Shown: in pieces, positions 2,735 through 31,625 of the stretch | How positions within the stretch are numbered: the first letter of the stretch is position 1 | How the letters are laid out: each line of letters begins with the position of its first letter | IMG/VR virus record: IMGVR_UViG_3300023174_003745 | Location: 1 to 34,731 of that record | Strand: one strand, 5' to 3' | DNA length: 34,731 nucleotides | From: a virus | Program-made: the position numbers and the translations under genes | The notes under the pieces: generated by a model | What the model saw: the letters and a program-made list of their open reading frames with translations, nothing else | Databases searched by the model: none | What the model was told of the DNA's origin: nothing

Positions 2735-2988
2735 TGCGACGATTTGCTTGGTGGCCCACAAGGATGAGCAGTGGTAGGTTGACGTGGTTGACTCACTACT
2801 GGCATTATCAGTATCTGTATGATGCCACCACAGGACGTCCGCCACTATGGGGACGTCACTTTGAATACTTGGAAACAGATGCGGAACATACCTTTCGCTT
2901 GCTGAAAGAAAGTGTTGTGCATAATCGTAATACATGGAACGATGTAGAACTAACCCGACAGGATCAACATGCTAGAAACTTTATGTGA
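2734..2988 (+). CDS. Hypothetical protein (84 aa)
   Basis: Begins at an ATG that overlaps the aceA stop and ends 20 bases inside the aldolase gene, so it is translationally linked to both. The 84-residue product is rich in Trp, His, Tyr and Arg (WLTHYWHYQYLYDA, RPPLWGRHFEYLETD) and has no signal peptide or obvious membrane segment. I do not recognise the family. Its place between two enzymes suggests it belongs to the same transcription unit, but no function can be assigned. Confidence 0.6.
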   Translation: MRRFAWWPTRMSSGRLTWLTHYWHYQYLYDATTGRPPLWGRHFEYLETDAEHTFRLLKESVVHNRNTWNDVELTRQDQHARNFM

Positions 2989-3634
2989 CATTATGACAGA
3001 CGCTTACAAACGCAACTGGATCACCAGTCGCGATGGTAATGCCAGCATACGTCATCATGACCGTGATCACTTCTATATCACTCCAAGCGGTGTGCGCAAG
3101 CAGACCTTGCAACCCGATCAGTTCAAAAAGATCTTGATCAAACCTCCCAATAGTTGGAATGAAACTGGCACAGGTTTCCAAGCTGATCGTTGGGGTTGGA
3201 AAGAACTGCCCTACACAGACATCAGCAGTGCCTTGAAGCCCAGTGGCGAAATACCCTTGCACTTTGGCTTGCAAAAGCAAATGGGCCAGCACCGTGGTGA
3301 AGTCAGAGTGGTTCTACATGTGCATCCTACCTACTGTGTGGCAGCCATGCATGCAGGCATCGAGCTAAATGAGTTGGTGAAGGATTTTCCAGAACTCAGT
3401 CGTTACACCCGTGTGGCCGCCAATGTGCCTGATGTACCCCCTATCAGTCAAGAGCTGGCAGATCAATGTTTTGAACGGTTAGAACTCGACGATCAAGGTA
3501 ACATAGCCTACGATATAGTGGGCATCAAAGGTCACGGTGTTGTAGCCATTGATACTAGCCCATGGCGTGCCTATGAACACATAGAAAGGTTAGAACACAT
3601 CTGTAAGATTGTGTTGGCATCAGGACGGACATGA
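2969..3634 (+). CDS. Class II aldolase/adducin-family protein
   Basis: A 221-residue protein with the full zinc-enzyme signature of the family: GNASIR (23-28), ITPSG (37-41), GEIPLH with the catalytic-type Glu94 and His98, HVH (117-119) and KGHGVV with His189. Relatives cleave sugar phosphates (L-fuculose-1-phosphate aldolase, L-ribulose-5-phosphate epimerase) or dehydrate methylthioribulose-1-phosphate (MtnB). The sequence alone does not fix the substrate. An insertion around 57-82 (NSWNETGTGFQADRWGW) looks larger than in the E. coli enzymes. It overlaps its neighbours on both sides, so it is probably co-expressed with the small protein before it and the glycosyltransferase after it. A carbon-metabolism or sugar-precursor role is inferred. 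Confidence 0.85.
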   Translation: MLETLCDIMTDAYKRNWITSRDGNASIRHHDRDHFYITPSGVRKQTLQPDQFKKILIKPPNSWNETGTGFQADRWGWKELPYTDISSALKPSGEIPLHFGLQKQMGQHRGEVRVVLHVHPTYCVAAMHAGIELNELVKDFPELSRYTRVAANVPDVPPISQELADQCFERLELDDQGNIAYDIVGIKGHGVVAIDTSPWRAYEHIERLEHICKIVLASGRT

Positions 3635-4209
3635 TTCAACCCAGGTGTTATGTGATTGCACACACGTCGTCTAGAGTCATAGGCGACTGTGTGCAAAGTC
3701 TTGAGCGCCAGGGCTGGTCATACGAAATATTTCCTGCTGTGGATGGACGTACAGTAACATCGCAAGATTGGCAACGTGCAGGAGTGACCATGAGCACAGA
3801 AGGCAAGATGACACGTCGCCCTGGCGCTCAAGGTTGCTGGCTGAGCCATTTTGCCTTGTGGCAGCAGGCCGTGGATTCTGATCAGCCCATGGTGATCATG
3901 GAACACGATGCCTTGGTCACTGGCCCTTGGCCTCGAGACCTAGATATAGATAAACAACTGGTCAAACTTTTTAGCACAGCTGAATGCAAGTTCAATCCTG
4001 CTTTTGGGCGTTGGAGCAAAGGTGCCCATGCTTATACCTTGACTCCAGCACAGGCACAAACTCTCATCGCAGATGCACAACAGCGTGGTGCTCAAGCCGT
4101 GGACAAGCATCTGGGCGATCAGGTGATTCCGTGGACATTTTATCACAGTGATTTGGTGATGCTTAACCCACGGCGTGGGACATCTACCACAAGTCCGCTG
4201 AGAAAGTAA
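3631..4209 (+). CDS. Glycosyltransferase family 25 (LPS-type)
   Basis: A 192-residue protein of the GT25 type, which transfers galactose or other sugars to lipopolysaccharide or protein. Evidence is the N-terminal CYVIAHTSSR strand, FPAVDGR, the GCWLSHFALW motif (about 68-77) typical of the family, and an acidic nucleotide-sugar site in MVIMEHDA near residue 93. It is slightly shorter than cellular relatives. The ATG overlaps the aldolase stop (ATGA). Modification of host surface sugars to block superinfection, or glycosylation of virion proteins, are both reasonable; acceptor unknown. Confidence 0.75.
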   Translation: MIQPRCYVIAHTSSRVIGDCVQSLERQGWSYEIFPAVDGRTVTSQDWQRAGVTMSTEGKMTRRPGAQGCWLSHFALWQQAVDSDQPMVIMEHDALVTGPWPRDLDIDKQLVKLFSTAECKFNPAFGRWSKGAHAYTLTPAQAQTLIADAQQRGAQAVDKHLGDQVIPWTFYHSDLVMLNPRRGTSTTSPLRK

Positions 4210-4626: not shown

Positions 4627-4965
4627 ATGAGAGCCGAAGAATTTATCACCGAATGGGTCGTGGGCAACGAACAAGTTGGTTCCTACCGTGTGGCCATCGA
4701 CAGCCATTTGATTCAGCGCCAACGCAGAGAAGGACGCGAACCTGTGTCCACAGAACAAGTATTACAAGTCATTAAAAAATTACCACAGGCTCGTGGCAAA
4801 TTCAAACAGCTGGGCAACGGTCAACAGTTTTGGTTGCACGACAACAGCGCCGATGTCAGTGTGGGATTTTTGATCAACGACCTTCAACAAAAACGTTTTA
4901 CAGCCAAAAATGTGTGGCCTGGGCGTTCGGGCACTGTCCGCATACCAACCTTTGAGGTCAGATAA
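4627..4965 (+). CDS. Capsid-targeted protein with RelE/barnase-like (BECR) features
   Basis: A 112-residue protein starting MRAEEFITE, which matches the T4 capsid targeting sequence and offers an (I/L)xE prohead protease site after Glu9. The rest follows the layout of small phage BECR-fold nucleases: an early His/Arg cluster (DSHLIQRQRREGREP, about 26-40), a helix, beta strands around QQFWLHD, and a final strand FTAKNVWPGR. I infer an RNase-like toxin fold, not certain, delivered from the capsid. It overlaps the next gene, which starts with a similar tag, by a single base. It could also be a non-catalytic internal protein. Confidence 0.6.
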   Translation: MRAEEFITEWVVGNEQVGSYRVAIDSHLIQRQRREGREPVSTEQVLQVIKKLPQARGKFKQLGNGQQFWLHDNSADVSVGFLINDLQQKRFTAKNVWPGRSGTVRIPTFEVR

Positions 4966-6431
4966 TGCGTGCAAGCGAATTCATCTCCGGCCACGTCATG
5001 GCCAAGATAGAAAAGACTGGTCAGATTGTGCAGATCCTGCGCCACGAAGATGAGGTAGGCTTCAGCGATGATCCGGGCTGGTTTCTAGTCAACACAGAAC
5101 CTGGACGTAGGATTGGCACTGGCATCAAGTGGATTCCAGATAGCACAAGATTTGCCTGGGTAAAAAAGTTTGACAGCCTAAAAGAATCAAAGACAGCCAC
5201 AGCACAACAAGTGTTGTCTTATATCAACAAGACACATCATGTACCTTTCCGACCTGGTGAAAAAATGTATAAGGCTGTGGCGGCACATCCTCACTGGGAA
5301 TTACAACGTGTGCCCCTGTTGAATCTCAACATACCTGATCAAGAGTATGATGATGTGGATTATGACGAATATGAACCCGAGTTGGATCCCTACGGTCGTG
5401 CCATGTTAGTAGATCCAAAGCATGCAGGTCGAGTCAGTCAAGACATTGTGGACCGACAGCCCATTGTGATTGATGCGGATCGCTACATCATAGACGGCAA
5501 TCACAGGGCCTGGGCTGCCAAATACCTGCTGAATCGTGATTATATTGATGCCTGGGTCCCAGTGGCACAAAAACAAGCGGTGGCTGAAGCTCGCATGCCT
5601 AGAGCCATAGAAGATTTTCTTGACGGTCTGACCGCAGATGATGTGGGTGTAGAAGAGATTGGCCCATATCGCATACACTTTGAAGGCTTTACCGATGACT
5701 GCAAATCATCCAAAGACTATTGCAGAGATCCCGAAGCAGTATACCAACAAGTCTATAACGATTTTATTCAACGTGAAGGTGGCCGGAGACCCATCATACA
5801 AGACATGGTAGGCGACGAAGATTACCCTATCTTGTACTCAATATTTAGAAAACACAAAACAAAAGTTGCAGTGAAAGAAGTCAACTATCCTGACGAACTA
5901 TCAGTCAGTGACCAGATACAACAATACTTTTTCAAGCGTGGTTATGAACTGGCTGGCGAAGGTCGCGATCAGATGGCTTTTGAAAGTCCACGTGGAACCA
6001 TCGTAAAAGTGCTGGGCATAGGCGAAGACGAGCGTGAGGAAGTTGTTAAACGATATGTGCGATTCTTTGAACAGAATCAACGCAATCCATTCTATCCCCG
6101 AATATACAACTCGGGCAACTTCACAGTGGACGGTGAAACTTATTTTGTGTATGAAATGGAACGTGTAAACTATGTGGCCAACGAAGAAGCCACCTTGGAC
6201 TACATAGAAAAGCTCATGAGTGCTGTGGACCGTGAACAGGGCGAACAGTTTCTTCAAAAAAATCCTGTGCCAGCAGAAATGAGCGAAGCGGAAATATTTG
6301 GATTGATCCAGGCCACCGAAGACATGATACAGGTGCTGGGTGGACAAGCTCCCTTGGATTTGACAGCCGTGGAAAATCTTGGCCGCAGAAACAACGGCCA
6401 CTTGGTCATAGTGGATCCCTACAGCCTATGA
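4965..6431 (+). CDS. Capsid-tagged protein with ParB-like and protein kinase-like domains
   Basis: A 488-residue multidomain protein. It begins MRASEFISG, a variant of the capsid-targeting tag in which the cleavage-type Glu is Gly. Around residues 165-185, PIVIDADRYIIDGNHRAWAA matches the ParB/sulfiredoxin-like superfamily (IDGxHR motif). From about 320 to the end lies a protein-kinase/APH-like fold: a glycine-containing N-lobe strand (YELAGEGRDQMAFESP), a nucleotide-pocket Lys (GTIVKVL), a hinge-like YFVYEME, and NLGRRNNGHLVIVDP at the end resembling the catalytic N and metal-binding D loop. Family knowledge suggests nucleotide-dependent phosphotransfer; the target is unknown. Its start overlaps the previous gene and its stop overlaps the next, so the three tagged genes form one translational unit. 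Confidence 0.7.
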   Translation: MRASEFISGHVMAKIEKTGQIVQILRHEDEVGFSDDPGWFLVNTEPGRRIGTGIKWIPDSTRFAWVKKFDSLKESKTATAQQVLSYINKTHHVPFRPGEKMYKAVAAHPHWELQRVPLLNLNIPDQEYDDVDYDEYEPELDPYGRAMLVDPKHAGRVSQDIVDRQPIVIDADRYIIDGNHRAWAAKYLLNRDYIDAWVPVAQKQAVAEARMPRAIEDFLDGLTADDVGVEEIGPYRIHFEGFTDDCKSSKDYCRDPEAVYQQVYNDFIQREGGRRPIIQDMVGDEDYPILYSIFRKHKTKVAVKEVNYPDELSVSDQIQQYFFKRGYELAGEGRDQMAFESPRGTIVKVLGIGEDEREEVVKRYVRFFEQNQRNPFYPRIYNSGNFTVDGETYFVYEMERVNYVANEEATLDYIEKLMSAVDREQGEQFLQKNPVPAEMSEAEIFGLIQATEDMIQVLGGQAPLDLTAVENLGRRNNGHLVIVDPYSL

Positions 6432-7576
6432 GAGCTCGAGACTTCATTCAAGAATACAAGACCGTGTCATTTCAAGGCATAGACATGGTATTCAAGGATC
6501 TTGGCGATGACATGATACAGATACAAGCTGAATCCAATGGACGAGAATTGGGTTATGTGACCTTTGTGCAAGAAGGTGATACATTGTTACCGCAGGATCT
6601 GGAAGTGGATGAACGCTATCGTGGACAGGGCATCGCTGCTGCCATGTATGACTATGTGAAAAGTCTGGGATATAGAATCCGACGCAGTGGACAACAGACC
6701 GATGCCGGTGCGGCATTTTGGCAAAAGCACAGACCAGGACAAAATGTTTGGGAAACTGAAATCTCAGAAGCCCAAGACGCTAGAACTGAGATAGAAAACA
6801 TGGCAACCATCTTGCCGGGATCACCTGATGAATACTTTGTGAGATTCACAGATCAGGACAAGTTGGGATTCAGTGCCCGCCAGCATTTTGGTCGCACACC
6901 TGATATCGACGATCCTGGCTACGATCCCTTGGCCCTGCCCAGACCGTCGGGACGGCCTGCACTGTGGTTCTACCCTTTGCGAACTTATCTACGCGGTGGC
7001 GATCTATTTGCCAGCCAACACCCATACACCTGGTTGGTCAGACTGCGTCCGGATGCTTGGTTACAACAAGTGGGTCGCGAAGAAAAAACCGACGTGCCCC
7101 GGGGCAAAACCCGTGTGGGCATGATCAGACGCGATCAAGGTGTGCCCATGGCCATATTTTTCCGGCCAGGATTTGATGTTGTGGATCGCTGGTATGACTA
7201 TGGCAAAACCCACAAGCAAAAGCCCAAGAAAATTCAAGAGCTTGCAGATAATACATATCTGTATCACGCCACCTACAAGCCTTTGTTGAAAAGCATTCAA
7301 AAAAGTGGATTAGGAAACACAACACAAAGCCAATGGACTGACAGTCGACCAGGTGTTGTTTATCTGGCCCGTGATCCTGAAGTGGCCCGTAGCTATGCTG
7401 AAACCGCAGAGTCAGTGCCCGAAGCCTGGTTGGATCAAATTGTAGTATTACAAATATCACAAGCGGATTTGGATCCCAAACTCTTACATGTTGATCGCAA
7501 TGTTAAAGACAACGCAGGTGACACATTGGAATATCATGCCGTGATACCTGCAAACTTATTAGGGAGAATGAAATGA
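6428..7576 (+). CDS. Capsid-tagged GNAT acetyltransferase / ADP-ribosyltransferase-like fusion
   Basis: A 382-residue protein opening with MRARDFIQE (tag with cleavage-type Glu9). Residues about 20-95 are a GNAT acetyltransferase: LEVDERYRGQGIAAAMYDYV holds the acetyl-CoA loop (RGQGIA), and TDAGAAFWQ fits the C-terminal strand region. Near 275-380, TYLYHATYKPLLKSIQKSGL, PGVVYLARDPEVARSYAE and LEYHAVIP follow the pattern of ADP-ribosyltransferase or KptA-like folds (YHxT start, substrate strand, central alpha/beta). T4 packages the ADP-ribosyltransferase Alt in its head by the same kind of signal, so a comparable early host-modifying role is inferred. The middle (about 115-260) is unassigned. 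It overlaps neighbours by ATGA at both ends. Confidence 0.7.
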   Translation: MRARDFIQEYKTVSFQGIDMVFKDLGDDMIQIQAESNGRELGYVTFVQEGDTLLPQDLEVDERYRGQGIAAAMYDYVKSLGYRIRRSGQQTDAGAAFWQKHRPGQNVWETEISEAQDARTEIENMATILPGSPDEYFVRFTDQDKLGFSARQHFGRTPDIDDPGYDPLALPRPSGRPALWFYPLRTYLRGGDLFASQHPYTWLVRLRPDAWLQQVGREEKTDVPRGKTRVGMIRRDQGVPMAIFFRPGFDVVDRWYDYGKTHKQKPKKIQELADNTYLYHATYKPLLKSIQKSGLGNTTQSQWTDSRPGVVYLARDPEVARSYAETAESVPEAWLDQIVVLQISQADLDPKLLHVDRNVKDNAGDTLEYHAVIPANLLGRMK

Positions 7577-13585: not shown

Positions 13586-14431
13586 ATGAACTATCTTGTA
13601 ATATATCCCGGCAGATTCCACCCGTTCCATCTAGGACACAAGGCCAGCTACGATTGGCTGACCCAACAGTTTGGAGAAAATGCGGTCTACATAGTCAGCA
13701 GCGACAAGCAAAATGACGAAGACAGTCCCTTTAGGTATGAGGACAAGGTAAAAATGGTCACCAAGTTGGGTGTGCCAGCTGGACGCATCAAGAAGGTAAA
13801 AAATCCCTATCAGGCCACAGAAATCACCAAGGCCTTGTCAGATGAAGAAAAGGCCAACACAGTGCTGGTATTTGCTGTCAGCGCCAAAGATGCCCAACGT
13901 TTTGATTATCGGCCCAAAGCCGACGGTTCTCCTTCTTATCTACAACCTCTGCCTGATAATGAAAAAGGCATGAAACCAATGACCCAGCATGGATATGTTA
14001 TCATAACTCCCACAGTGAACTTCCGAGTACAAGGGGCAGATGCCAACAGCGCCAGCCAGATACGCAAACTTTATACAGCGGGCAATGACAATGATCGAGA
14101 TCAGATCATTGTAGATTTATACGGTGCCGCTGATCCAGAACTAAAGGCTATTTTTGACAAACAACTAGGAGTCAATGCTCCACAAGAAGGCATCATCTAC
14201 GGGCAAGAACGCATATATGCCGGTGACAATCCAGTCAATATCATGCGCGAAGAACGCTTGGCCTGCCTGCGTGAAAGCATAATTTTCCTGCAGGATCGCA
14301 TCCGTCAACTCAGAGATGGCCTGGACTACATTGATGAAAAATGGAGTCGCAAGTACAAACGCAGTATCAATTGTGCCAGGCCCCGAGGATTCAGCCAAAA
14401 GGCACACTGCGCAGGTCGCAAGAAAAAATAA
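13586..14431 (+). CDS. HxGH nucleotidyltransferase with a C-terminal two-Cys basic module
   Basis: A 281-residue protein. The N-terminal domain is a cytidylyl/adenylyl transferase: YPGRFHPFHLGH (7-18) holds the HxGH nucleotide-binding motif, and NSASQIRKLY is the ISxTxxR counterpart. It probably joins a nucleotide to a small phosphorylated substrate (NMN, a sugar or a choline-like phosphate). After a coiled helix, YIDE (Glu251) is followed by a basic 30-residue tail with two Cys (KWSRKYKRSINC, GFSQKAHC) ending GRKKK. IDE before Lys252 fits a T4-type prohead protease site, so the tail may be released in the capsid. The start lacks a ribosome binding site but has a late-type box. Confidence 0.8.
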   Translation: MNYLVIYPGRFHPFHLGHKASYDWLTQQFGENAVYIVSSDKQNDEDSPFRYEDKVKMVTKLGVPAGRIKKVKNPYQATEITKALSDEEKANTVLVFAVSAKDAQRFDYRPKADGSPSYLQPLPDNEKGMKPMTQHGYVIITPTVNFRVQGADANSASQIRKLYTAGNDNDRDQIIVDLYGAADPELKAIFDKQLGVNAPQEGIIYGQERIYAGDNPVNIMREERLACLRESIIFLQDRIRQLRDGLDYIDEKWSRKYKRSINCARPRGFSQKAHCAGRKKK

Positions 14432-15402: not shown

Positions 15403-18400
15403 ATGAACATTCTTGAACTGGACACCTATGATCTTGGCGACGCTGTCAAGTTCAACGACCGATTAAACCCACGTTTGTTTGGCCCGGACGAACGCCTACG
15501 ACCCGAGGTGCGTGAGCAACTCATGGCCATTGCCGAAGATTTTCAGCAGTTTTTGGGCGTCAAGGACCTGGAATTAAAAGACATCACTGTATCGGGCTCC
15601 AATGCCGCATACACCTACACTCCACACAGTGACATAGATCTACACCTGGTGGTAGACTTGCCCGAAGCCGATGCTTCGGAAGTCTACAGAGAATTGTTTG
15701 ATGCCAAAAAGTATGCCTATAATGATCAGCACAATATCACCATTGGTGGATATGATGTGGAACTGTATGTGCAAGATGCCAACAAGACTCATCACAGCCA
15801 AGGCATTTATTCAGTGCTCAACAATGACTGGGTCGCAGTTCCCAAGCGTCGTCGGCCCGATGTTGACGACATATCAGTAAAATCAAAGTTTGAAGATCTT
15901 GGTCACAGGATCGAAGATACCATTGCCACCGGTGACTATGAAAAGATTTCAGCCTTGGCCGACAAGATCAAGACTTATCGACAAGCCGGTCTAGATGCAC
16001 ACGGTGAGTTTGGTCCTGAAAACTTGGCATTCAAGATACTGCGCAAACAAGGTCTGATCGAAAAGTTATATGCGGCTCGCAACGAAGCCAAAGATCGCTT
16101 GTTGAGCCTAGATGAGCGCAAGAAAAAGAAAAAGAAAACCAAATACGGCTATGGTGGCTACTGGTATCCAGGCACTGCCTATGCTGGGCAAGATCATCCA
16201 GCTGGCACCGAAGGTGGCGATGGCGGTGGTGGCGGTGGTGACGGTGGTGAAAGCATTAAAGAATCTGCCGAAACTTCAGATGAAGATATCCTGCGAAACT
16301 TCGTAAACTTCTGTGTAAAAGAATTGAAAATCGAGCAGATGCCACGTGTGAAATTGCGCAGAGATCCACAGTGGCCCGCGGTACACAAGACCTTTGGTCG
16401 CTACAATGACGATGCCAAAACACTAGAAGTGGCCTGGGGTCAACGGCACATCATGGATGTGCTACGCACTGTGGCACACGAACTCACACACAAACATCAA
16501 CACGAGCGTGAAGGTCATCGCATGGGACCCGATGCTGGCGAAACTGGCAGTGCCTATGAAAACGAAGCCAATGCCCGAGCTGGCGTGCTCATGCGTGACT
16601 ATGGTCGTCTTCATCCAGAATATTTTGCCCACGGCCAAGCCAAACAACTGTCTGGCAACGAAATCGAAGAAGGCTGGCGAGAAAAAGCCGCTGGTGTGGT
16701 TGCCGCGGCATGCATAGCAGGCACATCGGGTTGCAGCAGTACTGGTCAAATCATAAAGACCACACAAGATGTGGGTCGCACCGCACAGACCATTAGCAAG
16801 ATGACACGTGCCGGTGTTCAAGATGAAATGAGTCAGGAACTCAGAAACTTCATACGTGCTCAAGGCGGCGATCCCAACGCACAGAATCTTTCAACCTTGT
16901 ATCGTTGGCAAAAAAGAATGGAGCAATCAAAACAGACTCCTCCACAACAAAACGAATCAGCTTCGGGATACATACCAACAAAAAAGCAGGCCAAGGATCC
17001 ACGCTTCAGCATGGCCCTCACTGTAGACATCAAACCCGGACAAGTGGGCAAAGAAGCCAACAAGTTAAAACTTAAAACCGATCGGCAAGGTCAGCCACAG
17101 ATTGCCAACCCCAATGGCCTGTTTGAAACCTTGATGTTGGAATACGAAAAGTTTGATGAAAAGAAGCTGTTTGCTTTGGCCGACGAAGACTACAGTCCCG
17201 ATGAACCACCAGGCCCAGAGTTCAAACCCACCATGCCTCGTGGCACAGTGCGTGTAGATGTGAGCGATGTGTATGACTGGTACAAACTAGGCCAACACAT
17301 TGCCAACATGAAGGGCTTAGGAAAACATGATTTTGGCAAGGGACCACCCAGCACTATCATCAGCTTTGGTGATGAAGATGAAGAACACAAGTTCATCGGT
17401 GATCTAGAAGCCACAGGCTTGGATGTCACTGACATTGATCCTCGAGATCCCCAACAACCGCCTGGCAAGAAGATCAAGACTGATCCCACTTACAACGTGG
17501 ATGAAGTCATACAGACTCCGGTGCCCAAAGGCAAGGACGCTGAACAATACTATAAGTTTATTGTAGGCAAAGCCAAAATGGGCAGACCCTTGACTCGGGC
17601 CGAGCAAGACTATGTAAAAATGTATCAAGTGTATCGTCAGCAGAAGTTGGCAGAATTCGCTCCTGGCGCCCAGCGTGACGACCGCGGTCCCGACGAAGAA
17701 GAAATACTGCGTCAATATGCGGCCCAGTGGTACAACGGTGATGAAGATCTCCGAGTTGAAAAATTACTGGCCACCATGGGCTGGGAAATTGGCCAAAATG
17801 AAGACGAAGCCGGCGGTGCGTTTGTGATACGCCGTGGTGACATCAACGGCGATAGTTTTATAAGCTGGACTGATGCAGAACTCTCTGCCTTGAATGAAAT
17901 CAGCGATGAACTACGCCGTAGTTATTTAGGTCGTGCTGGCCAGCAAGTTGATCGCAGACAGACTCGCATGGCCCAGGTCAGAGATAGACTCAACAAGGGC
18001 TACGAAATATACCACGCTGAAGATCCCACTTTCATAGTCCACAGATTTGAAGCCAACACACCTGGCGAAGCACGACGCTATTACGAAACGTTTATTGATA
18101 GCTACGAGAGTGATCGAGACTTTGATTTGCAACTGCGTAGAGCCACAGGTTTGATGGAAGCATTCAACGCACCCTATCCAATGACTTGGGAACACAGCAA
18201 AGATTCACACGATGCCCTGGTTAAACTGCCAGATGGTACCAACCTCAGCATTATGTTTAGTAAAGAATACATGTTTGGCAACGAAGAAGATTGGCATGTT
18301 GAATTTTGGCGAAACAACAGTCAAGAAGTCACAGGTGAAGGTGATGCCCAACGAGTATTTGCCACGGTACTGAATGCTATCCAACAGTTTATCAAAATGG

Positions 18401-21400
18401 AAGACCCAGAGCGTATTCGTTTCAGTGCCTCTAAAGATCAAGAAGCGGATAGTCGAACAAACTTATACGGTAGTCTGGTCCGGCGTTATGCCAATGCCTG
18501 GGGTTATGAAGTAGACTCTTCTGAATACGGTGGATCAACAGTATTTAATTTTTATAAACTCTACGAACAAGACTTGAATGAAGACGAAGAACTAGACGAA
18601 GTCAAAATGAGTCCCGGTGCATTGGAAAAGTTTGCTACGTCTGACGCCGCCAAAGGCATACGTGCTGGCTTTGAAGCCGAACTCATATTCCGCGATACCC
18701 AGGGCGAAGCCGATGAAATGGATCCCGAACCCGACTACGATGCCGACGAGCGTGCCTACAGCATACAGCAGGTCATTGAGTTCTTTGACAATGACGAATA
18801 CGGTTATGGACTCAGCGACAGAGAACGCCGCAGGCTGGAAGATGGCCTGGACGAAACCTACATGAACTGGCGTGATGAAAAGATCACGAGTGATTTCCGC
18901 AACGAAGCTGAAGACCTGATCCGTGAACGACTGCTTGAAGAAACTCCCATGAGCGAGCGCATACACATGTATCTCACTGACAGTGAACAAATGTCAGACA
19001 AAGAAGCAGATAAGATCATAGCCGCTGGTGTCGACGCACCCAAATTTACCACCAGCAAAGAGCAACAAGCCTATGCGGCACAAAATCCCTACTATCAAGC
19101 ATACCTAGACGCCCTTGACGCAGCCGAGCTAGAACTGGATGAGAGTGTGGAATACAGTGTGAGTCAACAAGATGGGTACTGGGACGAAGCCTTGGATGAT
19201 TACCGCGACGACTATTCCGGTGACGATGACAGTTTCTTCAGTGATGTTGGCCTGCGTTGGATGAGCGATATTGCCAACGAGTTCAACTTGGACTGGCCTG
19301 TGTGGAACATGGATGCCCGCGGTAACTCAGGCAGCCGAGACTGGGAAACCATTGGTGCCTTGTTGCAGGATGCTGTGGACATGCCAATAAAAGTCAGCAC
19401 CAACTATCATAGCACCACACGCAGAGAAGGTCAGTGGATCATAGAACCCGACAGTAGCCTGAGTCCCGACGATCCTGATGACGAAGCTGGCCTGGAAATA
19501 GTAAGCCCGCCCATGCCCCTGCTCACAGCCATAGAAAAATTACGAGCTGTGGTAGACTGGGCCAACGATCCCAAGACTGGCAACGCATATACCAATAGTT
19601 CAACGGGCCTGCACATGGGCGTGAGCCTACCCACCATGAAGTCTGAGGATGCTGGTGAAGATACTGGTATTGACTATGTTAAGTTGATCCTGTTCATGGG
19701 CGACAAGTATGTTCAACAGCAGTTTGGCCGCACAGCCAACACATATTGTGCGTCAGCCTTGGACAAGCTAAAACAAAATATCAAAGGCAAGCGGTCAGAT
19801 CCTGCCGGTGTGGTCAAACTCTTACAGCACGGACTAACCGAACTGGCCTACAAGGAACTGCAAAAAGGCGTAGGCACTAGCAAGTATACCTCGGCACACG
19901 TACAACCCGGCTACATCGAATTTCGTAGCCCCGGAGGTGACTGGTTGGCCAAGGCCGATGAAGAAATAGGTGTGTTGGAAAACACCATGTTGCGTTTTGC
20001 CCGGGCCATGGCCATAGCCGGCGATCCCAGTGCCGAACGACAGGAGTATGCCAAGAAGCTGTACAAGTTGGTCACCGAAGACAATCCTGAATATGCGGAC
20101 CAACTGCGCCTGTTTAGTGAATTTTCAGCAGGAACCATCAACAAAGAACAGCTCAAGAAACAGTGGGCCGAGACTGTGCTACAGAAAGAGTTACCTGGCA
20201 CTGGCAAAGAAGAATACGAAGTCTTTCGCAGAGACAACAAGGACAGCCCCGATGCTACAGTGGGCACATTGTATGCCCGGGACTATGATGATGCCTATGA
20301 TCAGTTCTTGCGACAGTATGGTAGAGATATCAACGAGCTAGATGTGCGTATCAAACAGCCTTGGTTTGATGTGTTTGATGACACAGGCAAGATAGTGCGA
20401 ACCATACGGGCAAAAGACGTTGATACGGCCACAGATCGGGCACAATATGAATTTGGAGAAAGGTGGACCGATGCCTGGAAGATATATCGCAGACCCGATA
20501 ACACACCTGAACCCAAGGCCAGCCCCAGGGCCCAGGTGGCCAAGCGAATTGTAAAACCACAGGCACCTGCAGTGGGCGATGATGAAGCGTCGGATTGGGA
20601 AGCAGTTTATAAACCCACAGGACGAGTGTTTGATACTCTGGCCCATGCAGATACTTCTCAGGCCTTGGCCTGGAGAGACAGTGTCATGCGCAATCATGGA
20701 TTCACCAATGTCAGTGATATTATGGTGCGCAGAGTAGGGCATCAGCAGGCCGCAGATGCCCGCAGAGATAGTGTAGACTTGCAACGTAATTTAGGTGTCC
20801 AAGATGTGGATATTGATGTTACACAAAACTTTGAACCACGCCGACAGAACTATGAGTTGGTGTCAGATGAGGATCCAGATCGTGTCGTACACCGTATGAA
20901 CAATGCCACAGCCGACGAAGTGCGTGCCTGGATAGCTCAACAAGAGCAAGGCGGTATGCCCGCAGGATTCTTAAGAACAAGAATAGTTGCAGAAGCTATA
21001 GATCCTGTGTCAGGAGCAGGTGCTGTGCCTCCTAGACTGGATCCCAAAAACACAAGCAAGAAAACAGTAGAACCAACTGAAAAAGTATTCAAAAACCCGG
21101 TAAAGGGCTTGCCCTTCAAGAGTACCATTGGACAAGCTATCAGCCAGAAGGATCTGGAGAACATGACCCAGCAGATACAAGTGGCTAGGAAGCTAGGCGA
21201 CAGTGTCATGGAAATGGAAGACACTCCACCCGAAGTACTCAAGGCCTTGGATCTAGCCGCACAGAAGAATGGTTATCGGAACTGGGCCGATGTTAAGGCC
21301 AACCCCCGCAGTAGCAGTGCTGTGATGACTGTGGCTAAATTGGCCAACACCATCATGAGGACTACGGGTCCGCATCATGAAAAATTGTTTTACAAAAGCA

Positions 21401-21585
21401 AGACAGACGAAAACTTTGCTGACAAGAAAGTCTCGGGCAAAAGCCGTCCTGGTCGCGTCAAACGTGCTGGTGCTAGTTGCGCAGGTTCAGTCACAGATCT
21501 ACGTGCTCGTGCTAAAAATTCTTCGGGCGAAAAGGCAAAAATGTATCATTGGTGTGCTAACATGAAAGCAGGAAAGAAAAAATGA
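15403..21585 (+). CDS. Giant multidomain protein: MNT nucleotidyltransferase, HExxH metalloprotease, amidoligase-like
   Basis: A 2060-residue protein, the largest in the window. Residues about 60-125 form a pol-beta-like nucleotidyltransferase (GS at 65-66, HSDIDLHL with DxD near 77-79, later VELYV). A glycine linker (about 270-282) leads to a zinc-protease-like domain with HELTH at 359-363. A short Ala-rich hydrophobic patch with Cys lies near 430-445. Residues about 1067-1560 match the putative amidoligase family: GFEAELIF, LEIVSPPMPL, GLHMGV (1402-1407) and YIEFRSPGGDW (about 1504). Repeats of an alpha/beta unit follow, and a basic Cys tail (RAGASCAG, YHWCANMKAGKKK). (I/L)xE tripeptides occur at 285-287, 421-423, 749-751, 917-919 and 1064-1066, mostly at domain borders. 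A capsid-packaged polyprotein cut by the prohead protease is inferred. It begins behind a late-type box. Confidence 0.75.
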   Translation: MNILELDTYDLGDAVKFNDRLNPRLFGPDERLRPEVREQLMAIAEDFQQFLGVKDLELKDITVSGSNAAYTYTPHSDIDLHLVVDLPEADASEVYRELFDAKKYAYNDQHNITIGGYDVELYVQDANKTHHSQGIYSVLNNDWVAVPKRRRPDVDDISVKSKFEDLGHRIEDTIATGDYEKISALADKIKTYRQAGLDAHGEFGPENLAFKILRKQGLIEKLYAARNEAKDRLLSLDERKKKKKKTKYGYGGYWYPGTAYAGQDHPAGTEGGDGGGGGGDGGESIKESAETSDEDILRNFVNFCVKELKIEQMPRVKLRRDPQWPAVHKTFGRYNDDAKTLEVAWGQRHIMDVLRTVAHELTHKHQHEREGHRMGPDAGETGSAYENEANARAGVLMRDYGRLHPEYFAHGQAKQLSGNEIEEGWREKAAGVVAAACIAGTSGCSSTGQIIKTTQDVGRTAQTISKMTRAGVQDEMSQELRNFIRAQGGDPNAQNLSTLYRWQKRMEQSKQTPPQQNESASGYIPTKKQAKDPRFSMALTVDIKPGQVGKEANKLKLKTDRQGQPQIANPNGLFETLMLEYEKFDEKKLFALADEDYSPDEPPGPEFKPTMPRGTVRVDVSDVYDWYKLGQHIANMKGLGKHDFGKGPPSTIISFGDEDEEHKFIGDLEATGLDVTDIDPRDPQQPPGKKIKTDPTYNVDEVIQTPVPKGKDAEQYYKFIVGKAKMGRPLTRAEQDYVKMYQVYRQQKLAEFAPGAQRDDRGPDEEEILRQYAAQWYNGDEDLRVEKLLATMGWEIGQNEDEAGGAFVIRRGDINGDSFISWTDAELSALNEISDELRRSYLGRAGQQVDRRQTRMAQVRDRLNKGYEIYHAEDPTFIVHRFEANTPGEARRYYETFIDSYESDRDFDLQLRRATGLMEAFNAPYPMTWEHSKDSHDALVKLPDGTNLSIMFSKEYMFGNEEDWHVEFWRNNSQEVTGEGDAQRVFATVLNAIQQFIKMEDPERIRFSASKDQEADSRTNLYGSLVRRYANAWGYEVDSSEYGGSTVFNFYKLYEQDLNEDEELDEVKMSPGALEKFATSDAAKGIRAGFEAELIFRDTQGEADEMDPEPDYDADERAYSIQQVIEFFDNDEYGYGLSDRERRRLEDGLDETYMNWRDEKITSDFRNEAEDLIRERLLEETPMSERIHMYLTDSEQMSDKEADKIIAAGVDAPKFTTSKEQQAYAAQNPYYQAYLDALDAAELELDESVEYSVSQQDGYWDEALDDYRDDYSGDDDSFFSDVGLRWMSDIANEFNLDWPVWNMDARGNSGSRDWETIGALLQDAVDMPIKVSTNYHSTTRREGQWIIEPDSSLSPDDPDDEAGLEIVSPPMPLLTAIEKLRAVVDWANDPKTGNAYTNSSTGLHMGVSLPTMKSEDAGEDTGIDYVKLILFMGDKYVQQQFGRTANTYCASALDKLKQNIKGKRSDPAGVVKLLQHGLTELAYKELQKGVGTSKYTSAHVQPGYIEFRSPGGDWLAKADEEIGVLENTMLRFARAMAIAGDPSAERQEYAKKLYKLVTEDNPEYADQLRLFSEFSAGTINKEQLKKQWAETVLQKELPGTGKEEYEVFRRDNKDSPDATVGTLYARDYDDAYDQFLRQYGRDINELDVRIKQPWFDVFDDTGKIVRTIRAKDVDTATDRAQYEFGERWTDAWKIYRRPDNTPEPKASPRAQVAKRIVKPQAPAVGDDEASDWEAVYKPTGRVFDTLAHADTSQALAWRDSVMRNHGFTNVSDIMVRRVGHQQAADARRDSVDLQRNLGVQDVDIDVTQNFEPRRQNYELVSDEDPDRVVHRMNNATADEVRAWIAQQEQGGMPAGFLRTRIVAEAIDPVSGAGAVPPRLDPKNTSKKTVEPTEKVFKNPVKGLPFKSTIGQAISQKDLENMTQQIQVARKLGDSVMEMEDTPPEVLKALDLAAQKNGYRNWADVKANPRSSSAVMTVAKLANTIMRTTGPHHEKLFYKSKTDENFADKKVSGKSRPGRVKRAGASCAGSVTDLRARAKNSSGEKAKMYHWCANMKAGKKK

Positions 21586-24325: not shown

Positions 24326-24613
24326 ATGACCCGGTATTTTGTGCGAGTGCTAGCCGATATAGACTGTGAATGGGAAGGATTAAATCCCATTTATCGTGTG
24401 TATGTTAACGACGAACTGTTTGCAGAACGCACCTGGCGATGGACTAAGGAATACCTGGAAGAAATGTTGCAGATCGAAGCCGAACCCGGTGACTACCAAC
24501 TGCGTTGGGAGCTGGTCCCACCGCATTTGGCCCAACTTTTAGTAAACAATGTGCATGTGGATTATGGCCCTGGACATATGGTAGACGCTTCAACACTTAG
24601 GATAACTGGATGA
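24326..24613 (+). CDS. Beta-rich structural-type protein (95 aa)
   Basis: A 95-residue acidic protein with alternating strands: YFVRVLADID, YRVYVNDELFAERTW, YQLRWELVPPH, LLVNNVHVDYGPGH and STLRITG. The pattern is similar to part of the 145-residue protein at 13131-13568, and both resemble small carbohydrate-binding beta sandwiches. It lies after the glycine-rich adhesin gene and before the capsid-tagged 67-residue gene, whose start overlaps its stop. Tail or head decoration is possible. Confidence 0.6.
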   Translation: MTRYFVRVLADIDCEWEGLNPIYRVYVNDELFAERTWRWTKEYLEEMLQIEAEPGDYQLRWELVPPHLAQLLVNNVHVDYGPGHMVDASTLRITG

Positions 24614-24813
24614 GAGCACAAGAATTTATCGCAGAAACAGCTTCAGCAGGAGCCACAGGCTCTGGTAGCATAGCCACTGTAGCACAGCCCTTGGGCGGTG
24701 TGATCACAAGAAATGCTGGATCTTTCTTTTCTGGTAAATACTCTAACAGTGCGGATCCGTATCCCAATACGCCCGCTTACATGAAAAAAGGAAAGAAGTC
24801 ACGTGCTCGCTGA
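24610..24813 (+). CDS. Small capsid-targeted internal protein (67 aa)
   Basis: MRAQEFIAE followed by Thr is the best match in the window to the T4 internal-protein signal (MKTYQEFIAE): same EFIAE core and cleavage-type Glu at position 9. The remainder (about 58 residues) is small and basic: SGSIATVAQPLGG, FFSGKYSNSADPYPNTPAYM and a C-terminal KKGKKSRAR. By analogy with T4 internal proteins it would be packaged, cut after Glu9 and ejected with DNA. The start overlaps the upstream stop, and its end overlaps the Dps gene. Confidence 0.75.
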   Translation: MRAQEFIAETASAGATGSGSIATVAQPLGGVITRNAGSFFSGKYSNSADPYPNTPAYMKKGKKSRAR

Positions 24814-25243
24814 TTTGTTAAAGGTTTATCTAGCTTCAACATTTGCTTATTATTTGAAAGCACACTATTTCCATTGGAACGTGGAAGGCCCAGATTTTGG
24901 CCAACTGCACAAGTTTTTCCAGAAAATCTATGAAGATGCTTTTGGAGCTGTAGATCCCATTGCCGAATACATAAGAACCACAGAAGAATATGCACCCGGA
25001 AGTTTTCAACGCTTCCAAGAACTCACGCAGATACAGGGACAGACCAAAGTTCCCCGTGCCCGATTAATGTTAGAAGAATTACTCGCAGATACACAGACCA
25101 TGAAAGACATGAGCAAGCAAGTGTTTGATGCTGCCACAGCCGAAGGTCGTGAAGATGTGGCCAACTTTGCTGCCGAGCGCCAAAGCGCACACGGCAAGTA
25201 CATGTGGCAGATCCGGAGTTATTTGAAAGAAGCAAGGGCATGA
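24803..25243 (+). CDS. dps: Dps-like ferritin (DNA protection protein)
   Basis: A 146-residue member of the Dps/ferritin family. The ferroxidase residues His24 (in FHWNV), His36, Asp51 and Glu55 are spaced 12, 15 and 4 apart, exactly as in E. coli Dps (51, 63, 78, 82). It should store iron, consume peroxide and form 12-mers. The long Lys-rich N-terminal tail that binds DNA in E. coli Dps is absent, so DNA binding may be weak. It starts at GTG 24803, with AGGAAAG upstream, inside the end of the capsid-tagged gene. It may protect phage or host DNA from oxidative damage during infection. Confidence 0.9.
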   Translation: MLADLLKVYLASTFAYYLKAHYFHWNVEGPDFGQLHKFFQKIYEDAFGAVDPIAEYIRTTEEYAPGSFQRFQELTQIQGQTKVPRARLMLEELLADTQTMKDMSKQVFDAATAEGREDVANFAAERQSAHGKYMWQIRSYLKEARA

Positions 25244-28900: not shown

Positions 28901-29232
28901 GCATGATTGGCATTGAAACTGATCCAGCCAACAAACAGATTTTGAAGTCGGCTATCCGTCAACTGGAAAATCGTGCCGAAAATGAAGGCTGGATCACCAT
29001 ACAAAGTCGCATGGTGCGTGAAGACAGCGACGGTGGCGAAGCCGTGGAAATGGCCATCATGCGCAGAATGTTGGTGGCACATACTGATCTCATTGTTGAG
29101 TTTGGTCTTGACAAGGTAGTGCAGGCCATAGAAGAAGTGGCCTACAACGTTGGCGACACCGACGAAATTGGCTCCAGTGATGTGAGTGGTTGGGTCCGTC
29201 AAGTCAAACAGATCCTGGGTGCTGACGCATGA
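25966..29232 (+). CDS. Large modular virion/internal-type protein (1088 aa)
   Basis: No enzyme motif was recognised. It starts MLSLDLFDSRYEKKLHEG, where LHE before Gly18 fits a prohead cleavage site and the opening resembles that of T4 Alt. Residues about 30-120 are helical and charged. About 325-370 is an Ala/Pro/Thr-rich linker flanked by coiled coils (about 375-425). A long helical module follows (about 460-690, with RRLAPKIERHRDSF and GFQNWFWFLPF). SMAEGW begins a small alpha/beta unit (YSVYIDGREWRAYKSDDHAR). The C-terminal module (about 1030-1085) ends DEIGSSDVSGWVRQVKQIL. The modules resemble those in the 2060-residue protein. Packaging in the capsid is inferred. The stop overlaps the next ATG. 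Confidence 0.6.
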   Translation: MLSLDLFDSRYEKKLHEGALDDTVTRTQAHSMEPLSRRAADIRTQIRSGKLSGVELDKLEKEYEDLVQKRLDIMLDRQPKNEQQVPSKQDPFAYVKPEPKGIGDIQDPRAKMAQLAQRAKKGPLANVGAGIKGFLTGKEEPLDEQELGRRGIGVRNMKALEATIRQGLAKTVFQFPKVRAVAADEEDSDKLADYYNGLDSAGRSNFVYNVLGDPMKFVTLCKTLNIQLIPVGAIQPDLPGIPSQGEIPLEEKKNQKKKFKSTVAQREIEKAMAAEPAAGDPIEAFVLKSLKTDSEQDQQIQDLENKLQNVVTKTVATEPTVMPKVQPSATVATAPTTAKPAPTPTSTATQAPVELPTPTPTAEPAPTAAELPKKDQKILSRVKSIEKRLKDRVDAYQDARAQQDKATLQQQIDALQTQARQQASKLSSSGRLVLGQDDVYDIDANLVREPELEPIPLKKAAESKMQEHGGGIGPRQHWQDLMQEGQPQELINRYLAIDAETDVDAVRKAIQAISRDPELGANSKSRLLGQIGMIIKRHRLPIGRAYYQFMQQYMEAVEMDRTKVAGYPNDPATVKHRLDTAKAILSNPASDADSRREAAGIVAKLDKKLVAETVTNVKAGMAEIYRRLAPKIERHRDSFLAGQLYDELENYAELHGAEGEFKRMMSTARNRAHMEYDTDPGGFQNWFWFLPFEDNDVTESINELKKKMSKLEALALAANRAGDDAKCKMYQQKIQSLKQKLSQSMAEGWSDQGNPTPYSVYIDGREWRAYKSDDHARAVAEKVRANLKRQGREQTVTIAPSQRKQVEETHDSKLELAAKEFIKGIYDPTGPVYRAAYRSFHKGQDAEAQLRKHIAQKYGVSEKDLSDAETTHRASKLAGPRRKKDVEEDFGMPGTTIPRKSLIQGYTVFWNPKTQVVSVTRGGDSEEAAIEQARVGTPSIKNFRQAADRLIDRIESDLNEGREIQTREDFIRERDRLLRMIGIETDPANKQILKSAIRQLENRAENEGWITIQSRMVREDSDGGEAVEMAIMRRMLVAHTDLIVEFGLDKVVQAIEEVAYNVGDTDEIGSSDVSGWVRQVKQILGADA

Positions 29233-30590
29233 GATTCCAAGAAATCCAAGAAGCATGCTGGACAGGTTATCGGCAAGCTGGCATGAAGAAAAAGGGCGAC
29301 CGACAGGTGCCCAACTGTGTGCCTGTGGAAGAAGTCAAGATTGGTCCAGAGATCACCGGTCGGGACTTATTGTTCAAAGCAGCAGCCATGGCCATGCGTG
29401 ATGCCGGCCGTGAAGGCATAAGTTTGGACTACGAACAAGCAATCAAGCAAGCATCTAAGATCTATGGCATACCTTACACACCCAGTGAATTGCCAAAACT
29501 GTTGGCACAACGTGCAGAAATAGATCGTCAGTTGGCCCTGCTGAAGCAAGGCAAACAAGTGGTCAAGGCTCGCAGACAAGCGAAGCGGGCACCCACACCA
29601 GCTGGTGCTGAAGAATACTGGCGGACACATGCCTTGCCCACAGACCGTATCAAACCTGCAACCAAAACCCTAGAAGAAACTGAAGCAGAACTGGCCGAAG
29701 ACTTGAAAAAATGGTTCAAAGAAAAATGGGTTCGTTTTGGTCCCGATGGGAAGATCCGTGGAGCATGTGCCCGAGGATCGAGCAAAGAAGGCAAACCAAA
29801 ATGCCTGCCACAAAGCAAGGCACATGCCCTGGGTAAAAAAGGTCGTGCATCAGCAGCGGCCAAGAAACGCAGAGAAGATTCCAATCCTGAACGCCGAGGT
29901 CCTGCCCGGAATGTAGCCACAAAAGTCCGAGAAGCAGGTTCACCAGCACAGCAGGCCGCCATTGCCATTGCTATGAAGAAGGCTGGTAAGAAGCCTAAGC
30001 AAGGTGTGGCAGAAGTCTCTAAGATAAAAACATTCTATGCTCCAGATGGAAAAACAGTCACATACGATCCTAGTAAAGACCATACATCGGCACCAGTTGA
30101 TAAAAAAGTTGGCACTACCAAAAAAACAACTGTAAGTAGCAGAACAAAAACATTTTATGCTCCTGATGGAAAAACAGTCACATACAATCCCAACAAAGGT
30201 GTGGCGGAAGGCAACAATGATAATTGGTATGACGACGCAGATGAGTTTGGCATGCCTGGCAGTGAATTTTTTCCTGAAAAACAACCACGAGGCCATTACA
30301 AAGTATATTACATGACTGCCACGGATCACAAGCTCATGGGCAGATATGCTACACAGGATGAAGCAGAACAACGAGTGAAAGAGTTAAAAGCTGAATATCC
30401 TGACAACACGTTTATAGTATTTGCCAGCCAGCGAGGTATGAAGGAACAACAAGAATTAGATGAAAAACAAGATGCCTGCTACCGTAAAGTAAAAAGCCGT
30501 TACAAGGTCTGGCCGTCGGCTTACGCAAGTGGCGCCCTTGTCCAATGCAGAAAGAAAGGTGCCGCCAACTGGGGCAACAAGAAAAAATGA
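29229..30590 (+). CDS. Basic protein built of two-cysteine modules, capsid-tag-like start
   Basis: A 453-residue, strongly basic protein. It begins MRFQEIQEA (IQE before Ala9 fits the protease consensus) and runs straight into a first module, CWTGYRQAGMKKKG with VPNCVP. A second follows ELAE (155-157): KWVRFGPDGKIRGACARG, with KPKCLPQSKA and a Lys/Arg-rich stretch to about 235. Two YAPDGKTVTY repeats come next, then GVAEG and a beta unit. The last module follows ELDE (410-412): DACYRKVKSRYKVW with ALVQCRKKGAANWGNKKK. Each module has two Cys in a basic setting and could bind nucleic acid, metal or form a disulfide. Release of modules by the prohead protease and a role with packaged DNA are inferred. 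Confidence 0.65.
   Translation: MRFQEIQEACWTGYRQAGMKKKGDRQVPNCVPVEEVKIGPEITGRDLLFKAAAMAMRDAGREGISLDYEQAIKQASKIYGIPYTPSELPKLLAQRAEIDRQLALLKQGKQVVKARRQAKRAPTPAGAEEYWRTHALPTDRIKPATKTLEETEAELAEDLKKWFKEKWVRFGPDGKIRGACARGSSKEGKPKCLPQSKAHALGKKGRASAAAKKRREDSNPERRGPARNVATKVREAGSPAQQAAIAIAMKKAGKKPKQGVAEVSKIKTFYAPDGKTVTYDPSKDHTSAPVDKKVGTTKKTTVSSRTKTFYAPDGKTVTYNPNKGVAEGNNDNWYDDADEFGMPGSEFFPEKQPRGHYKVYYMTATDHKLMGRYATQDEAEQRVKELKAEYPDNTFIVFASQRGMKEQQELDEKQDACYRKVKSRYKVWPSAYASGALVQCRKKGAANWGNKKK
30026..30190 (+). repeat. Two direct repeats of 45 bases, period 120
   Basis: Copies at 30026-30070 and 30146-30190 differ at only three positions and encode KTFYAPDGKTVTY(D/N)P. High identity suggests a recent in-frame duplication inside the basic modular protein. 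The spacer encodes a Thr/Lys/Ser-rich linker. Confidence 0.85.
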
Positions 30591-31000: not shown

Positions 31001-31625
31001 TTTTCGTATAACCAATCATGATAAACTAGACGGCATATTGGTTCGTCTATGTGAAATGGTGATCCGTGGTCAACAAAAGGATCCTGATCGTTATGGCATG
31101 GTTGCAGCCGCTGTGCTGGATCCTGATCAAAGATTGGTCATGGCCTTGAATCATGCCCAAGGCGACAAAGATGTGCATGGCGAGCGTGCGGCCATACGCA
31201 AATATGTCAAGAAGTATGGCGCGATACCCGAGGGCAGCATAATCATCACTACTTGTAGTCCTTGCACTGAACCCATGCCTGAACGTGTGGGCGACAGTTG
31301 TAGGGACCTTATCAGTTCCACACCTGTTCACAAAGTCTATGCTGGTTATCGTGATCCCAGTCAACAAACAGGGCCAGGTGACAAGACTTATCATTTACAG
31401 ATTACCAAGAACAAGCGCATACAAGAACTTTGCAAGAAATTCGCAGACACCTGGCTCAAACGACAATTAGAAGAACTGAGTTTTTTAGGCAGTCCATGCA
31501 CCAAGGACTGCTCTGGACACAGAGCCGGCTACTACTGGAGCCAAGCACGCGGTGGTGCCAAGGTGCCCAACTCATGGAGTCCCAGTTTCAACAATGGTGC
31601 TGCACTACAGCGAGCAGGTCGATGA
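30987..31625 (+). CDS. Deaminase-family protein with C-terminal Cys/His module
   Basis: A 212-residue protein from ATG 30987 (MRISDFRI, tag-like). It carries zinc deaminase elements: VHGERAAIRKY with His64 and Glu66, then ITTCSPCTEPMPER with Cys93 after Ser-Pro, and a further Cys105. In cytidine/dCMP deaminases the second site is PCxxC; here the second ligand is either Cys90 (CSPC) or the distant Cys105, so this is a divergent subfamily. QLEE (161-163) precedes a 49-residue tail with SPCTKDCSGHRAGYYW and SFNNGAAL, another Cys/His module that may be separable. Substrate (free nucleotide, RNA or DNA base) unknown. It overlaps the upstream gene. Confidence 0.72.
   Translation: MRISDFRITNHDKLDGILVRLCEMVIRGQQKDPDRYGMVAAAVLDPDQRLVMALNHAQGDKDVHGERAAIRKYVKKYGAIPEGSIIITTCSPCTEPMPERVGDSCRDLISSTPVHKVYAGYRDPSQQTGPGDKTYHLQITKNKRIQELCKKFADTWLKRQLEELSFLGSPCTKDCSGHRAGYYWSQARGGAKVPNSWSPSFNNGAALQRAGR

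Follow-up and report, generated by a model that had tools for sequence, protein, structure and literature searches.

The 2060-amino-acid (aa) protein encoded at positions 15403–21585 of virus record IMGVR_UViG_3300023174_003745 is probably a capsid-packaged polyprotein that is cut by a prohead protease into about 8–11 separate pieces, which are injected into the host. The whole stretch analysed, of 34,731 nt, is called the window; the modules, the polyprotein-like genes, the 67-aa gene at 24610 and the cytidylyltransferase-like gene described below lie on its plus strand. The gene is an intact open reading frame (ORF) having relatives of mosaic architecture. In these relatives modules are shuffled at the predicted sites, only the cleavage motif is conserved at the junctions, and a prohead protease is found together with a capsid protein carrying an LxE site; in models of the protein itself the sites are placed in linkers. 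From these features we infer packaging, cleavage, injection and enzyme roles in the host, delivery together with the DNA being suggested by the targeting sequences. A sequence-only reading of the window had proposed a protease-processed polyprotein of this length and had named five tripeptides near its domain borders. The ORF and the tripeptides are as it described (IKE287/SAETS, IEE423/GWREK, LAE751/FAPGA, LME919/AFNAP and LDE1066/VKMSP; a slash follows the predicted cleavage Glu), and processing is supported by stand-alone modules behind capsid-targeting sequences and by module swaps exactly at (h)xE/, where h is hydrophobic.

In the proposed mechanism the N-terminus MNILE/, and possibly other parts, would carry the chain into the prohead core, and a T4-type prohead protease would cut after Glu at hydrophobic-x-Glu (hxE) linkers during head maturation. 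The main cuts would fall at about residues 238, 287, 423, 701, 751, 832, 919 and 1060/1066, with weaker candidates at 5, 518, 595 and 2003. Besides a nucleotidyltransferase (NTase) and an amidoligase, the products would comprise a zincin-like peptidase, a GNAT-like domain, a basic peptide from the C-terminus and several small modules, all ejected into the host together with the DNA. Relatives would exchange modules at the cut sites or express each singly behind a targeting sequence.

Relatives of the protein are encoded by 596 viral-contig stretches; the comparison set comprised 139 loci, 79 retained and 60 further fetched. At least 12 modules occur across relatives in dozens of arrangements and in single-gene forms. 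Stand-alone module genes open with a sequence resembling the capsid-targeting sequence of T4 IPIII: M(K/R)xxE(F/L/I)(I/L/V/T)xE, or in short M(K/R)xxEF(I/L)xE. This start is present in 124 genes of the 139 loci, accounting for 20.9% of M[KR] ORF starts vs 0.6% of internal M[KR]. The cleavage Glu of the targeting sequence aligns with internal junctions, and the module begins with the residue that follows this Glu. For example, stand-alone MRAHEFIAE/AFDQPYKGKWE, MKVNDIILE/VFDQPYAFRWD and MRIKEIILE/SFDQPYPLTWS correspond to GLME919/AFNAPYPMTWE of the window protein, MRAKEFINE/ISDEQL to LNE832/ISDELR, MRAREFVVE/STFQEH to SIKE287/SAETS, and LLNE/INMSPS to LDE1066/VKMSPG. In T4, the first 10 residues of the IPIII capsid-targeting sequence suffice for packaging and gp21 cuts its end (PMC9026906), and Alt is processed at both ends, at ITE-6 and LTE-619 (PMC5694885).

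Junction queries were started after the Glu, so the alignments are independent of the motif. Among 119 non-redundant junctions of a first set, P1 was Glu in 76% (background 7%) and P3 was I, L, V or M in 66% (background 19%); [ILVM]xE occurred in 76 of them vs 1.6% background (p 1e-104), and P4–P14 were near background. A larger set of 195 non-redundant internal junctions in 30 families had [ILVM]xE in 112 (57%) and [IL]xE in 56.

Breakpoints, defined as alignment starts of differently arranged relatives and located without the motif, point to the same borders. Such homology breakpoints fell at [IL]xE sites in 76 of 219 cases vs about 19–20 expected (p=0.003–0.006). Start peaks near 286, 516, 592, 746, 830, 915, 1058 and 1999 adjoin IKE287, QNE518, ADE595, LAE751, LNE832, LME919, LNE1060 and TDE2003, respectively, and smaller start/end peaks near 698–700 mark VDE701. 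Before the protease module (border 287) hxE is present in 32 of 35 proteins vs 24% expected, and at the NTase end (border 238) in 35 of 39 non-redundant NTase proteins vs 19% expected per window; three of the four exceptions at border 238 are proteins ending at that point. Stand-alone NTases end without Glu where fused ones carry LSLxE, at (T/S)L, (T/S)LR or SLK, as in Synechococcus phages S-CRM01 (..KSLSL, stop), S-B68 (..DLSLR, stop) and DSL-LC03 (..KELSL, stop), marine virus AG-345-D19 (..SLSLK, stop) and contigs L018, L043 and L050; the ends differ in DSL-LC02 (..SLSLENYDYQNPIIKIG, stop) and Maribacter phage Molly_1. This loss of xE where no downstream module exists also supports the polyprotein, and because stand-alone NTases stop at the LSL position, a cut at LDE238 would free essentially the stand-alone protein.

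The sequence-only reading had cautioned that chance gives many xE sites and that only their border placement is notable, and both statements hold. The protein has 22 [IL]xE sites vs 17.8±3.9 in shuffles, and 17% of shuffles reach 22, so the raw number carries no meaning and its enrichment, not being significant, was dropped as evidence. The five named sites all lie at borders of independently shuffled modules. Its list was incomplete, having overlooked ILE5, LDE238, VDE701, LNE832 and LYE1055/LNE1060 just before LDE1066, as well as the degenerate borders QNE518, ADE595 and TDE2003. Seven supported borders have [IL]xE (238, 287, 423, 751, 832, 919 and 1066). Twelve of the 22 [IL]xE sites are off borders; the majority of the ones examined are within folded modules.

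AlphaFold models of residues 1–740 and 745–1610 had a mean predicted local distance difference test score (pLDDT) of 73.8 and 79.8, respectively. Burial of the sites in folded domains would have spoken against processing according to the sequence-only reading; in the models the supported border sites appear accessible, outside folded domains and in or beside low-confidence linkers. Residues 287, 518, 595, 701, 751, 832, 1055, 1060 and 1066 are in or at segments of pLDDT<50, 423 and 919 adjoin segments of this kind, and 238 is at the end of the last NTase helix; the linker with LYE1055, LNE1060 and LDE1066 corresponds to 310–322 in the model (pLDDT<50). Sites IAE45, LPE88, LIE220, LDE1151, IRE1175, LLE1179, LEE1180, LDE1247, IIE1348 and LTE1480 were rejected as borders, being within folded modules, in blocks of pLDDT 78–97. 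ILE5 and LFE575 are exceptions to the pLDDT pattern. LFE575 was rejected as its sequence is conserved on both sides, and INE1645 was unsupported as a border.

Relatives also encode the predicted protease. Of 15 related large records, 7 carry a T4-type prohead protease (Peptidase_S77, PF03420), among them the 337-kb record that encodes the 1851-aa homologue. In relatives the genes for the protease, the scaffold and the Gp23 capsid protein follow the T4 order, and the capsid-protein propeptides end at LRE42/NASSG, LAE42/SATAG and LSE41/SATAG (longer reads LRE42/NASSGSTVSGNIATL and LSE41/SATAGATSAGN). T4 gp21 cuts after L/I-x-E, and T4 IPIII offers a precedent for a Glu-to-Asp change at P1 blocking the cut (PMC9026906). 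The window has a 67-aa gene at 24610–24813 in which a targeting sequence precedes a capsid-protein-like mature N-terminus (MRAQEFIAE/TASAGATGSGSIATVAQPLGG). This mature N-terminus mimics that of the relatives' major capsid protein, and the capsid mature start behind a targeting sequence (MRAQEFIAE/TASAGATGSGSIATVAQ) ties both registers together.

The module map of the 2060-aa protein starts with ILE5 (15409–15417), a predicted N-terminal processing site with a short Alt-like propeptide; of 29 distinct fused homologues, 28 have the N-terminus M-x-[ILV]-x-E5. Module 1 (15418–16116; predicted piece 6–238, 26.5 kDa), with C-terminal border LDE238, is a Pol-beta-type NTase. It matches phrog_36119 (PHROGs, 7e-42), NTP_transf_2 was recognised in 27 of 43 relatives, and its fold is similar to CdnE/AadA/MNT nucleotidyltransferases (single match at E≤0.001). 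The resemblance to CdnE/MNT folds hints at a possible interference with nucleotide-signal or toxin systems. Module 2 (16117–16263; 239–287, 5.0 kDa) is a Lys/Gly/Tyr-rich 49-aa segment with border IKE287, also found as stand-alone genes MRAHEFVTE/KKRKRKKPRWAAYGPG. Module 3 (16264–16671; 288–423, 15.7 kDa), with border IEE423, has HELTH...ENEANA (HExxH) motifs, jannalysin among its fold matches, and a Peptidase_M78 (PF06114) score of 16.4 bits, below the curated cut-off of 22; it is therefore called zincin-like and not filed as M78. IKE287 and IEE423 bound this metalloprotease-like domain, as proposed earlier, and the module also stands alone in MRAREFVVE/ and MRAREFLSE/ genes.

Module 4 (16672–16956; 424–518, 10.4 kDa) is a GWREK helical/hydrophobic segment with degenerate border QNE518; it is missing in many relatives, where [ILV]xE abuts SASGYIP directly. 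Modules 5–6 (16957–17505; 519–701, 20.4 kDa) are SASGYIP and PGPExKPTMP segments, separated near the degenerate ADE595 and matched by stand-alone MRAREFIVE/..PRGPETKPTMP genes; their C-terminal border is VDE701, and TYNV[DNAG]E/ precedes differing modules among relatives. Module 7 (17506–17655; 702–751, 5.9 kDa), a 50-aa AEQYYKF segment with border LAE751, is shuffled among relatives. Module 8 (17656–17898; 752–832, 9.1 kDa), the FAP module with border LNE832, is preceded in other proteins by VNE/, IME/, LNE/ or IKE/. Module 9 (17899–18159; 833–919, 10.4 kDa), the ISDE module with border LME919, stands alone in MRAKEFINE/ISDE and MRACEFIAE/ISDE genes, and GLME/ or GIME/ precedes four different modules.

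Module 10 (18160–18600; 920–1066, 17.1 kDa) consists of the AFN module and the linker with LYE1055, LNE1060 and LDE1066. Residues 917–1042 match phrog_6387 and have weak GNAT/antizyme fold matches, which are suggestive only. AFN also occurs in stand-alone genes, e.g., MRAHEFIAE/AFDQPY. In the isolated Straboviridae member Vibrio phage nt-1 it is found in VPFG_00035 (L080:2518–3438) after SSVNLTE/AFDKPSK, the preceding gene (L080:1928–2518) beginning with MIEFLTE/ADRAKK; these nt-1 genes are laboratory-accessible cases. Module 11 (18601–21411; 1067–2003, 105.8 kDa) is the amidoligase with the downstream region up to 2003, stand-alone as MKYLELKEQLLNE/INMSPS and MRYKELLSEQQLDE/LRMSPG. Amidoligase_2 (PF12224) matches residues 1317–1462 (6.9e-8, 33.1 bits, above the curated cut-off of 22), placing LDE1066 before an amidoligase-like domain as had been suggested. 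It is the only domain to clear its Pfam cut-off in the protein, the others being recognised via relatives or folds, and a PDB fold search with residues 745–1610 gave no match at E≤0.001. Following the degenerate site TDE2003, module 12 (21412–21582; 2004–2060, 6.1 kDa, isoelectric point 10.7) is a basic Cys/Lys piece that closes the chain, NFADKK...MYHWCANMKAGKKK. It stands alone in about 66-aa genes MRAHEFVDE/NFADGK..., and 35 of its 43 junctions have [ILVM]xE.

Several points weigh against a packaged chain that is processed into many pieces. Xaa-x-Glu is a short motif, and four borders depart from [IL]xE (VDE701 with V at P3, QNE518, ADE595 and TDE2003). Because loci were collected by similarity to the 2060-aa protein, their junction families do not sample phages at random, and about 43% of the larger junction set is without [ILVM]xE, in part owing to imprecise registers. 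The prohead protease is absent from the 34.7-kb window fragment. The protein starts with the short Alt-like MNILE/ and lacks the full MRAxEFIxE, so that the packaging argument rests on this N-terminus and on neighbours at 4627, 6428 and 24610, which carry the full M(K/R)xxEFIxE form. The 106-kDa amidoligase-containing remainder has LxE only in folded regions and may therefore stay one piece.

Three other explanations were weighed. Genes with targeting sequences may have been fused in-frame, leaving xE as a relic in a multidomain polypeptide injected whole; modules do occur as stand-alone genes behind targeting sequences, and the large injected virion RNA polymerase of N4 can remain unprocessed, as quoted in PMC5512222. 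We consider this unlikely. A scar would retain the whole targeting sequence alike, whereas only P3 and P1 are conserved: P4–P9 are at background, P5/P4 are retained in only 3 of the 195 junctions of the larger set, and P2 composition differs from that of the targeting sequence, which argues against simple fusion scars. Moreover, LSLxE at the NTase end does not stem from a targeting sequence, and stand-alone NTases lack it. Autoprocessing by the embedded zincin-like metallopeptidase, with its HELTH and ENEANA motifs, would resemble the mechanism suggested for P1 DdrB and other polyvalent proteins (PMC5512222), but the junction motif is the L/I-x-E of T4 gp21 (PMC9026906), which the relatives' capsid protein shares, and identical junctions are found in proteins without a metallopeptidase module (e.g., L018:14125, L008:14791 and window 29229), which makes it highly improbable. 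Very little credence is given to the view that the multidomain protein is structural or not injected, that xE falls in its acidic linkers by chance and that the borders are ordinary recombination points: the chain is acidic and its raw [IL]xE count ordinary, yet border placement, the P3/P1-only profile and targeting sequences on stand-alone modules already disfavour it.

The proposed polyprotein shares traits with known systems. T4 IPI–III and Alt have a short N-terminal targeting sequence ending in (I/L)xE, as the stand-alone modules do, and are cut after Glu by a protease of the Pfam family that relatives encode (PMC9026906; PMC5694885); Alt is trimmed at both ends (PMC5694885). Each T4 internal protein yields one mature injected product, whereas here many domains would come from one chain; the cutting of T4 scaffold/core proteins into several pieces serves clearance. 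Polyvalent proteins have 2–15 shuffled effector-like domains per chain, are probably injected and were likened to polyproteins (Iyer et al., 2017; PMC5512222). The 2060-aa protein resembles them in having at least two shuffled effector-like domains in one phage chain. In polyvalent proteins the proposed processing peptidase is embedded, and the available part of that paper describes no prohead-protease border sites; the word 'amidoligase' is absent from its text. The jumbo phages phiKZ, 201phi2-1 and SPN3US have ejection proteins cut after x-x-Glu by prohead proteases, but at S/A-x-E or A-x-E, with long propeptides removed and no series of effector modules. The available part of a Vi01-like virion proteome report (PMC10892097) contained no cleavage data, nor did listings of papers on Agrobacterium phage Atu_ph07 and on KVP40-type virion proteomes show any that could be used.

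The gp21-type processing, the T4 targeting sequences and multidomain injected polyvalent proteins (PMC5512222) are already known, and the present case is best read as a novel form both of T4 internal-protein processing and of polyvalent proteins. A search of the available literature found no published description of a polyprotein whose several effectors are separated at prohead-protease sites. Cutting of a polyprotein by a viral protease to give several functional products is a hallmark of RNA viruses and, to our knowledge, little known in tailed phages. If the processing is real, a large T4-like phage could load its head with many separate injected proteins from a single gene, the loading of many host-takeover enzymes from few genes in jumbo phages would be explained, and capsid-maturation protease sites would form a sequence-level code with which metagenomes could be searched for phage proteins that are injected and for the borders of these. 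A widespread cassette system in large T4-like phages appears moderately likely, with hundreds of injected modules swapped exactly at the cleavage Glu and several polyproteins per virion cut in the prohead to give dozens of effectors; about five such genes would be in the window.

The second polyprotein-like gene (29229–30590) has junctions LAE157/DLKKWFK and VRE235/AGSPAQQ, aligned to MRSDEFISE/NLKQWFK and MKLSDIVKE/AATPAQQ. The third (4965–6431) has LKE74, VAE208 and VKE305, aligned to MRAREFVQE/QQATAQQVLAYINKTHH, MRAHEFLKE/VQIPRDIEEFLDSLN and MRSQEFISE/VNFPDELSVSDRIQN, and the fourth (6428–7576) has an MRARDFIQE/ start and an ISE114/ junction. A cytidylyltransferase-like protein (13586–14431; CTP_transf_like) has a tail IDE251/KWSRKYKRSINCARPRGFSQKAHC, aligned to MRSSEFVFE/KWSQKYKSSINCSHPRGFSQKAHC. 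For a cytidyltransferase of the cultured Synechococcus phage S-SRM01 (QPX48223.1) the N-terminus is predicted to be ATSASVQ, behind MKNFHQFITE. Basic Cys-containing C-terminal tails, all different, are found at 14339–14428, 21412–21582, 30480–30587 and 31480–31560 (GFSQKAHCAGRKKK; MYHWCANMKAGKKK; VWPSAYASGALVQCRKKGAANWGNKKK; CTKDCSGHRAGYYW). At least three of these kinds are also found close to the beginning of stand-alone genes with a targeting sequence, and the tails are possibly DNA-binding internal peptides.

The record also encodes DnaJ and a ClpA-like ATPase, and a B-family DNA polymerase, judged from sequence, is at the window end. A (G/C)TAAATA or similar element was noticed, by eye only, upstream of starts 4218, 4627, 13586, 15403 and 24326, GTAAATACAGTTCATATG preceding 15403 being an example; it may be a T4-type late-promoter-like motif. 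A ferritin/Dps-like gene (24803–25243; PF00210) has a GTG start and shares a few bases with the end of the small gene before it. Isocitrate lyase, a glyoxylate-shunt enzyme, is encoded at 1382–2734 (PF00463, 1.8e-104), beside a class II aldolase-type gene (2969–3634; PF00596) and a family 25 glycosyltransferase (3631–4209).

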